A program made the position numbers and the translations under genes. A stretch of DNA of 50,128 bases from Candidatus Woesearchaeota archaeon (GTDB lineage Archaea; Nanobdellota; Nanobdellia; Woesearchaeales; WJKL01), in assembly GCA_014729675.1 (NCBI GenBank), contig WJJM01000013.1, forward strand, positions 1-50,128, written 5' to 3'. The notes beneath the pieces are model-generated. The model did no database searches. It was not told the DNA's origin and saw only the letters and a program-made list of their open reading frames with translations. Below, piece by piece: positions 1,806-8,582 of this stretch (its first letter is position 1; every line of letters starts with the position of its first letter).

Positions 1806-2124
1806 GAGATCTGCTGCTAGAGTTTATGATGTTTTATCTTTATTAAAAAAAGCAAATAAGATAATCAATTACAGAGTAAATAGCAAAGATTATTGGATAA
1901 GAAAAGACCAAAACATTATTATAGTATCTAAACTAAAATATGAATATCTTAAGCTTTTGAGAGATTCCAATAAAAATACAAAGTATTTTTCGAAACATTT
2001 TAATGTTTGCTGGAAATATTCATTTAGACGGCTTAAAGAGCTAGAAAAATTAAGACTAGTGAAAAGAGACAAAGACAAATTTTGGAGGTTATTAGAAGTG
2101 GACAAGAAGGTGATTGTAAAATGA
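1801..2124 (+). pseudogene. 5'-truncated gene, possible winged-helix protein, cut by the IS
   Basis: The frame from 1801 encodes about 107 residues (FERSAARVYDVLSLLKKANK...) rich in Lys, Arg and Tyr. The helical segment KYFSKHFNVCWKYSFRRLKE followed by LEKLRLVKRDKDKFWRLL resembles a winged-helix recognition helix and wing. I do not recognise the family. The first in-frame ATG upstream is at 1747, inside the IS and in another frame of tnpA, so the native 5' end is missing. The stop TGA (2122-2124) overlaps the rnhB ATG as ATGA, indicating former or present translational coupling with rnhB. Confidence 0.55.
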
Positions 2125-2815
2125 CTAAAATTTGTGGGATTGAAGAGGCCGGTAGAGAATTTTAGCGGAATAATTTTGCTGAAATTTGCCGTTAGGTCCA
2201 GTAATCGGTCCTATGGTCATGGCAGGAGTCATGATAGAAGAGGGAGAAGAGGATAAGCTCGCAAAGATGGGAGTTAAGGACAGCAAGATGCTTTCTCCAA
2301 AGGCAAGAGAAATCATGTTTGACCTTGTGAAAAGCAATTGTTCTAACTATAAGACACTGATCGTTGATGTAAATATGGTGGATGCTGCTTTAGCTACAGA
2401 CGATATGAACTTAAATAAGCTGGAAGCCCAGAAGATGGCTGAAGTAATCAATGCGTTAGAGCCTGACAGGGCTATAATAGACTGTCCGAGCAATAATATT
2501 CCTGCTTTTGTAAGTTATCTCAGGAAACACATCAAAAATAAGAATATAGAGATAATAGCTGAGCATAAAGCTGATGAGAATCATCTTGTTGTCGGAGCTG
2601 CCTCTATATTGGCTAAGGTCACAAGGGACAGAGAGATTGAGAAGATAAAAAATAAGATAGGCGTGGATTTCGGTTCTGGATACCCTTCTGATCCAAGGAC
2701 TGTAGCATTTGTAGAGAAGAACTGGAACAAACATCCATCTATCTTCAGGAAAAGCTGGAGCTCTTACAGGAAGTATGTTGAGAAGTTTAAGAACAAAAGT
2801 TTAGGTGATTTTTAG
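2121..2815 (+). CDS. rnhB: RNase HII, interrupted by a 38-nt BHB intron
   Basis: Ribonuclease HII cuts the RNA strand of RNA-DNA hybrids and removes single ribonucleotides from DNA. Exon 1 (2121-2155) encodes MTKICGIEEAGR; exon 2 resumes at 2194 with GPVIGPMVMAGV. Joining 2155 to 2194 restores the invariant family block and a 218-residue protein of normal archaeal length. Unspliced, the frame hits TAG at 2163-2165. Later blocks are intact: KDSKML, AIIDCPSNN (third acidic residue), EHKADENHLVVGAASILAKV (fourth), and SGYPSDPRT. The first catalytic Asp of the usual DEAG is Glu here (EEAG). The ATG overlaps the previous stop. Without splicing it would be a pseudogene, or an N-truncated protein from TTG 2186 lacking the first two carboxylates. 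Confidence 0.85.
2156..2193 (+). other. Candidate archaeal BHB intron in rnhB mRNA
   Basis: Exon bases CGGT (2150-2153) pair with intron bases GCCG (2188-2191) as a 4-bp central helix. The 5' bulge is AGA (2154-2156) and the 3' bulge TTA (2192-2194), three bases each. The inner helix GAATTTTAGC (2157-2166) with GCTGAAATTT (2178-2187) is ten continuous pairs including two G.T, closing an 11-nt loop. The splicing endonuclease cuts between the second and third bulge bases, that is after 2155 and after 2193. That junction rebuilds the Arg codon (AG|A) and GRGPVIGP. The outer exon-exon helix is weak (at most 3 bp), so this is a relaxed BHB. The insert is 38 nt (not a multiple of 3) with an in-frame stop. 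Confidence 0.8.
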
Positions 2816-8488: not shown

Positions 8489-8582
8489 TGCGCCGAGCGG
8501 GATTTGAACCCACATTAACGGCTGTCTTCCCGGCAACTGCCGGCGATGGAAGGCCGTTGTCATGCCATTAGACCATCGGCGC
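8489..8582 (-). tRNA. tRNA-Gly(TCC) with 23-nt intron
   Basis: Acceptor GCGCCGA/TCGGCGC, D stem GTCT/TGAC, anticodon stem ACGGC/GCCGT, T arm GTGGG-TTCAAAT-CCCGC, discriminator A, no encoded CCA. Removing 8524-8546 gives the loop CTTCCAA with anticodon TCC. The intron follows position 37, the canonical archaeal site. Loop bases CTTC pair with intron GAAG, the 5' bulge is CA|T and the 3' bulge AC|A. An intron hairpin CCGGC-AGTT-GCCGG follows after two extra unpaired bases. The organism must therefore have a BHB-cleaving splicing endonuclease and an RNA ligase. Confidence 0.93.

Follow-up and report, generated by a model that had tools for sequence, protein, structure and literature searches.

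A putative bulge-helix-bulge intron in the RNase HII gene of a Woesearchaeota archaeon, with same-site introns in related genomes

The current study concerns a 50,128-nt stretch of DNA (hereafter, the window), which is one entire contig (C71) of a 1.44-Mb draft genome of Candidatus Woesearchaeota archaeon (1,441,499 bases in 72 contigs, labeled G000). The window carries rnhB, the gene encoding RNase HII, in an interrupted form. From its ATG at 2121 the gene reads MTKICGIEEAGR and runs on into GAA TTT TAG, a stop after 14 codons of the unspliced frame, and the family block GPVIGPMV picks up from 2195 in a different frame. The interruption consists of 38 nt inside the GRG motif (Table 1), and the original prediction was right on re-reading with regard to both sequence and coordinates (the ATG at 2121, the TAG and the change of frame). 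With 2156-2193 removed, the joined gene encodes 218 residues, which match Pfam RNase_HII over positions 1-197 of 199 in a profile search (163.7 bits), while the downstream frame alone matches over 9-197 (145.4 bits); only with exon 1 joined does the match begin at profile position 1. The joined protein also aligns with solved archaeal RNases HII starting from residue 3. It is the one rnhB match in the whole genome, and its nearest relative found among named records, at 61% identity, is from a Candidatus Woesearchaeota genome.

Table 1. Coordinates of the features in the window and loci of the rtcB introns in related genomes
Feature	Position or locus	Strand	Details
rnhB exon 1	2121-2155	+	Codons MTKICGIEEAG plus AG, the first two bases of an Arg codon
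Putative BHB intron, 38 nt	2156-2193	+	In-frame TAG at 2163-2165; frame shift (38 = 2 mod 3)
rnhB exon 2	2194-2815	+	Third base of the Arg codon, then GPVIGPMV..., up to the stop
Outer helix, exon 1 side	2147-2149	+	Partner 2196-2198
Central helix, 5' strand CGGU	2150-2153	+	In exon 1; partner 2188-2191
5' bulge, AG/A	2154-2156	+	Probable cut after 2155, from Arg codon conservation
Inner hairpin	2157-2187	+	14 bp including G-U (2157-2170/2174-2187); loop 2171-2173
Central helix, 3' strand GCCG	2188-2191	+	In intron; partner 2150-2153
3' bulge, UU/A	2192-2194	+	Probable cut after 2193; third base A in 39/39 genomes
Outer helix, exon 2 side	2196-2198	+	Partner 2147-2149
tRNA with 23-nt anticodon-loop intron	8489-8582	-	Read as Gly-UCC; isotype and borders by sequence reading
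rtcB introns in relatives	L155, L152, L158-L166, L168-L172, L176, L178, L180, L185

Just upstream of rnhB lies an IS200-like transposase ORF (PF01797; 1329-1805), and a short ORF at 202-405 resembles a transposase fragment. The end of the transposase ORF is overlapped by another ORF (1747-2124), whose start may have been lost through the transposase insertion. At loci L032, L089, L090, L091, L092 and L093, too, the rnhB start is overlapped or abutted by a small ORF, whose end resembles that of 1747-2124 (...KELEKL..., judged by eye); possibly, this small ORF and rnhB form a conserved pair, which is seen in several of the intron carriers. Within rnhB itself, GIEEAGRG (2136-2156) has Glu where the usual DEAGRG motif begins with Asp. 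EEAGRG is also found in the intron-free genes of relatives such as G001, G003, G043 and G050, and the Glu variant is thus not tied to the intron.

The 38-nt insert and its borders are predicted to form a canonical 3-4-3 bulge-helix-bulge (BHB), in which two 3-nt bulges flank a 4-bp central helix consisting of the pairs C2150-G2191, G2151-C2190, G2152-C2189 and U2153-G2188. The central helix and the bulges AGA and TTA had been proposed at exactly these positions and were borne out. Two other elements of the original prediction require revision: the inner helix, given as 10 bp, extends to 14 bp once G-U pairs are counted, and the outer helix, described as weak, is present in the minimum-energy fold, where 2147-2150 pairs with 2195-2198 (including C2150-G2195) at the cost of one central pair. 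Across the family alignment, 82% of the cells of the outer 3-bp helix are paired, a value that lends it weak support, since this helix is made up of nearly invariant codons and lies outside the reach of covariation. When the window copy is folded as a single sequence, the number of shuffles out of 200 that fold equally well is 3 over 2121-2230 (z -2.57) and 2 over 2136-2211 (z -2.76), which suggests a better fold than that of shuffled sequence, with a modest effect. Among ten copies folded in this way, between 0 and 6 of 200 shuffles were as good, with the exception of G285 (42/200). The insert has no room for a group I or group II ribozyme core at 38 nt, and Rfam at gathering thresholds finds only tRNA in the window. 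Given the modest strength of the lone fold, it is the comparative evidence that settles the reading of the insert as a BHB intron.

Among the first 60 genomes searched, which include G000, an rnhB match was obtained in 53, and one of these (G002, same family, other genus) has a 29-nt insert at the same rnhB site; the loci of G001 (same family) and G003 were read and have no such insert. When the joined protein was used as query against 352 genomes from the order, 303 gave an rnhB match. From the matches listed, we picked eight further genomes solely for a broken rnhB frame, i.e. a late match start or a stop inside the match, with no use of structure, and each of the eight proved to contain an insert at this same position. 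The window, G002 and these eight relatives constitute a set of ten sequences found independently of structure. Within this set, the central helix is 97.5% paired and the inner helix 98.3%, two-sided changes occur at seven pairs, and a further exonic helix is 88% paired. At the first central pair alone, A-U occurs in four sequences, C-G in three, G-C and U-A in one each, and one is unpaired.

For a broader survey, a covariance model (R2) was applied, which matches in 94 of the 352 genomes of the order and in 100 of the 371 genomes of a phylum sample that overlaps the order; hits of 38 bp correspond to intron-free genes. In total, 39 genomes of 20 families carry the rnhB intron, 26 of the 352 within the order (G000 included) and 13 outside of it, and this is a lower bound, as the filters of the R2 scan are strict. 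The genomes compared are for the most part draft assemblies. The model contains the structure and hence favors inserts that pair, such that only the first ten sequences are free of this bias. Among 25 named records examined with R2, one (L032) has the intron, 20 have intron-free lengths and four have no hit. A 50-bp hit in G347 had raised the suspicion of a 12-nt intron, and the locus reads as an uninterrupted gene.

Within the 39 carriers, all four central pairs, counted from the exon borders, are formed in 35, whereas 2,000 shuffles gave a mean of 8.9 and a maximum of 18; in the remaining four, one central pair is missing. Limiting the comparison to one genome per family leaves 18 of 20 with four pairs (shuffles: mean 5.3, maximum 12), and two of the 39 (G292 and G295) have identical motif sequences. 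The identity of the pairs is highly variable. The first central pair is A-U in 14 carriers, C-G in 11, U-A in 6, G-C in 2, G-U in 2 and not paired in 4, and the last is C-G in 12, U-G in 10, G-C in 7, A-U in 5 and U-A in 5. The exon bases that vary at these two pairs are a third codon position and the third base of a Gly codon, respectively. In an alignment of the 39 carriers plus one intron-free row (G013), covariation reached 0.659 as compared to 0.171 for shuffled alignments, and none of 500 shuffles attained 0.659. The inner helix likewise preserves its pairing despite many double changes in the relatives. The original prediction had called for an alignment of rnhB from relatives for presence, absence and compensatory changes, and the comparison of relatives supplied all three: 39 carriers, a covarying central helix and intron-free relatives.

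The inserts range from 19 to 45 nt, and division of their lengths by three leaves a remainder of 1 in 16, 0 in 13 and 2 in 10. All 39 break the frame, 26 of them by a shift and the 13 in-phase inserts by an in-frame stop. An intein in rnhB was considered and rejected on these same grounds, namely that every insert either shifts the frame or contains a stop. The register of the putative cut is indicated by the junction codon. EndA, the archaeal splicing endonuclease, cleaves BHB motifs between bulge bases 2 and 3. A cut at this position leaves an Arg codon at the junction in all 39 carriers, whereas a cut one base later would leave Arg in 28 and Ser in 11; moreover, the first intron base varies (A, T or C) while the Arg is kept. 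The register implied by this conservation agrees with the originally proposed joining of 2155 to 2194. One might alternatively suppose that the ribosome bypasses the insert, halting near the hairpin, releasing the peptidyl-tRNA from its codon and landing downstream, as is known for phage T4 gene 60. The strong hairpin, the early stop codon in most inserts and the constant site would all suit such a process, but it requires take-off and landing triplets for the same tRNA, whereas the triplet preceding GGN is TAA or TGA in 15 of the 39, AGA in only 3 and AAA, ATA or TTA in the other 21. If the ribosome landed on the Gly codon instead, the conserved Arg would be lost, and bypass leaves unexplained the covarying 4-bp helix, the 3-nt bulges and the combination of a variable first intron base with a constant Arg. 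We consider translational bypass very improbable.

Equally, it could be argued that rnhB is a decaying pseudogene or that the 38 nt are an assembly artifact, as the gene is frameshifted as it stands and the contig stems from a 72-contig draft. Both had been named as possible refutations in the original prediction. Neither accounts for a common site and structure with differing lengths in 39 genomes of 20 families, and the occurrence of differently sized inserts at this position in independent genomes makes an assembly error very unlikely. Exon 2 contradicts decay, being intact and, judging from substitution patterns, under purifying selection in the carriers: dN/dS is about 0.03-0.21 in seven computable pairs, one of which has a saturated dS (the window/G002 pair falls outside this set, its dS being not computable). 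The gene is also the sole rnhB match in G000. As a rough control for artifacts, 193 genomes of the order were searched for cbf5, and none of the listed matches contains an internal stop, with the weak, split match of G040 standing outside this statement. Taken together, we regard decay or artifact as negligibly probable. The same-site introns in 39 genomes, the covariation and the conserved Arg codon instead argue that the rnhB pre-mRNA very probably contains an archaeal BHB intron at 2156-2193, presumably spliced by EndA and an RtcB-type ligase, as the original prediction of a protein-coding BHB intron had held.

Cleavage, ligation and the identities of the enzymes are steps that we infer as follows. 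In the folded rnhB transcript, a 4-bp helix would connect the final codons of exon 1 with the 3'-terminal part of the intron, with a 3-nt bulge on either side. Cleavage by EndA would then fall between bases 2 and 3 of both bulges, behind 2155 and behind 2193, and 2155 would be joined to 2194 by a ligase of the tRNA-splicing type, most likely RtcB. The GRG motif would thereby regain its Arg codon (AG+A), and full-length RNase HII would presumably be produced from the spliced mRNA only.

The enzymes expected for such a process appear to be at hand. G000 has one EndA match (PF01974, 191 aa), which shows the Tyr/His/Lys context of the family. Its nearest solved structure is the catalytic subunit of the Nanoarchaeum equitans enzyme (3iey_A), which is hetero-oligomeric, followed by 5x89 and 1a79, the latter the M. 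jannaschii homotetramer; a divergent partner subunit could escape detection. EndA was found in 36 of the 39 carriers, as a single match in 35 of these, and there was no match in G108 (98% estimated completeness), G146 or G228, where the sequence may be missing or the endonuclease divergent. Two RtcB-family matches are found in G000, and within the order RtcB is present in 314 of 352 genomes and in 23 of 26 carriers. An independent sign that introns of the BHB type are probably spliced in G000 comes from a tRNA with a 23-nt anticodon-loop intron (Table 1), which ARAGORN had left untyped. In three genomes, a similar protein of ~380 aa with a charged middle is encoded directly downstream of endA (L001, 247-1386 on the minus strand; L148; L144), and it is possible that this neighbor is a splicing partner. 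The original prediction further held that a relaxed-BHB endonuclease would be needed. According to the available excerpt of one study, only the (alpha-beta)2 and epsilon2 forms of EndA efficiently remove relaxed-BHB introns (PMC6379350). The rnhB introns are canonical 3-4-3 and do not require such a form; this part of the prediction is not supported, given the canonical layout, the exon-exon outer helix and the single EndA in 35 of 36 carriers.

In order to be counted in a strict BHB-plus-frame scan, an intron had to be no longer than 100 nt, with a 4-pair central helix (two or more G-C and three or more Watson-Crick pairs), both 3-nt bulges, an inner helix of at least 6 bp and a loop of at most 14; a minimum of 10 and 50 open codons was required of the spliced frame, the unspliced frame had to close soon after, and sites covered by a long unspliced ORF did not count. 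Applied to both strands of 318,524 of the 1,441,499 bases of G000 (22%, window included), the scan gave rnhB as its single hit. In G285 and G296, the same scan returned the rnhB and rtcB introns of G285 plus four apparent chance hits, which fall at three places; it missed the rnhB intron of G296, whose inner helix carries a mismatch. A loose version of the scan gave very many chance hits in 232,767 bases of these two genomes.

The occurrence of introns in rtcB extends the phenomenon to a further gene. We read 20 rtcB genes with internal stops or split matches, 19 from the order and one (G389) from elsewhere in the class, and all 20 have at least one insert of 29-33 nt, for a total of 23 inserts (Table 1); since the genes were selected for a broken frame, 20 of 20 is no measure of frequency. 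Two further loci yielded no intron out of the 22 run (G002, where the contig ends, and G311, whose frame is unbroken). Removal of the inserts at the canonical BHB cut restores the RtcB motif, and the central helix has four of four pairs in 18 inserts and three of four in five. The junction placed by homology alone coincides with the BHB cut in 18 of the 23 (ties included) and is 1-2 bases off in five. There are five intron places, two in His-x-Gly-Tyr-Gly and three in Gly-x-Gly-Tyr/Phe-Asp-x-Asn-Cys-Gly, and G158, G173 and G293 have two inserts each. The weakest case is the first insert of G173, which has a 3/4 helix and restores HSGYG as opposed to the HWGYG of others at that site. In G000, rtcB is intact at both motifs.

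Inteins of RtcB are a known system and need to be distinguished from these introns. Forty genomes were selected for split or weaker rtcB matches, out of a larger number of such genomes, and they comprise 12 intron candidates and 20 with open frames of ~1,000 aa, which are taken for inteins; the other eight were left uncounted (G016, G025, G163, G177, G280, G284, G296 and G311), although the matches of G296 and G284 are split in a way that resembles introns. The large insertions in these 20 of 40 relatives lie near the same conserved RtcB motif, but inteins depend upon protein splicing and an open frame of hundreds of codons, as opposed to a 30-nt RNA hairpin with stops. In a genome that has an rtcB intron (G040), cbf5 gives a weak match split into two (best E 2.4e-9), and this gene could be interrupted as well.

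One could also envision the rnhB element as a regulatory cleavage site rather than a true intron, i.e. EndA cuts the BHB, the halves remain unjoined or are joined at times, and RNase HII is thereby switched off. Such a role would fit with the presence of these introns in rtcB itself among the relatives and with the fact that all 39 introns break the frame, from which it follows that rnhB expression would depend entirely upon splicing. However, conservation extends from exon 1 (GIDEAGR) over the junction to the exact Arg codon and requires a joined mRNA at least part of the time, and we find such a regulatory cleavage improbable.

Regarding the history of the rnhB intron, the existence of close relatives without it implies that it has been gained or lost. 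Carriers occur beside non-carriers within one genus (G350/G349) and within one family (G146/G167). A tree built from 91 rnhB proteins, 38 of which come from genes with the intron, needs at least 17 changes of intron state versus 23-35 in 200 shuffles; one short carrier sequence and the intron-free G347 were dropped, about half of the forks are open (44/87), and the intron-free rows are the loci at hand, all from the order, making this a nonrandom sample. Intron state therefore tracks the rnhB tree better than chance, and much of it seems to be inherited. The data fit with an old intron that was often lost, with repeated gain at one site, or with both. A proposal concerning origin only, and one compatible with the intron reading, is that the intron is the remnant of a site-specific homing element still spreading among rnhB genes. 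Its fixed site within a highly conserved motif, its patchy occurrence (at least 17 changes on the tree) and the large intein-like insertions near the same RtcB motif as some of the rtcB introns are features one might expect of a mobile element, but at 19-45 nt the introns are too short to encode an enzyme, and we view this origin as unlikely.

For the cbf5 pre-mRNA intron of Crenarchaeota, Watanabe 2002 is cited. The available part of a 2009 study indicates that splicing had been confirmed in no other archaeal coding gene than cbf5, with only predictions elsewhere (Yokobori 2009, PMC2738675), and a 2020 paper, as far as its accessible text goes, still gives cbf5 as the one coding gene of archaea in which a BHB intron has been reported (PMC7714728). 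Much like the rnhB intron, the cbf5 intron is described in the 2009 excerpt as short, located in a protein gene, equipped with BHB-like borders, lost in some lineages and cut by EndA (PMC2738675). The two differ in gene, site and superphylum, and, on the same partial source, the cbf5 intron is tied to a hetero-oligomeric EndA of broad specificity (PMC2738675), whereas in the present case one small EndA gene goes with a BHB of canonical form. Archaeal pre-tRNA introns at 37/38 share with the rnhB intron the 3-4-3 layout and an exon as the 5' side of the central helix, but the rnhB exons are codons rather than parts of a tRNA fold and the outer helix derives from coding sequence. An mRNA BHB intron with EndA-dependent removal is also described for Haloferax volcanii HVO_1309 in the accessible text of its report (PMC7714728); that intron lies in the 5' UTR, whereas the putative rnhB intron lies inside the coding frame. 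No BHB intron in rnhB or rtcB was found in the open-licence literature, preprints excluded, nor in the portions available of PMC6125680, PMC2738675, PMC13149111, PMC12397907, PMC6379350 and PMC7714728. The kind of intron is thus known, while its gene, lineage and breadth as well as the link to rtcB are new as far as the open-licence literature searched can show.

Several implications arise from these findings. Firstly, rnhB would be the second archaeal coding gene with strong comparative evidence for a BHB intron, from a different superphylum (DPANN) than cbf5, and rtcB would be the third, with five distinct intron places; archaeal mRNA splicing thereby becomes testable in many genomes. The findings also suggest the use of a canonical BHB within coding sequence, together with an apparently single-subunit EndA. 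Secondly, gene finders would truncate both RNase HII and RtcB in putative carriers, with the loss of catalytic motifs. Thirdly, introns that come and go at the same site offer a route to study intron gain and loss. More tentatively, BHB introns of coding genes may be general and old in this phylum and situated in its most conserved catalytic motifs. As rtcB, which encodes the ligase needed for joining, is itself interrupted by such introns, a loop could exist in which the output of both the ligase and RNase HII depends upon the splicing capacity already present, with the mRNA introns reading out pre-tRNA load and splicing state.
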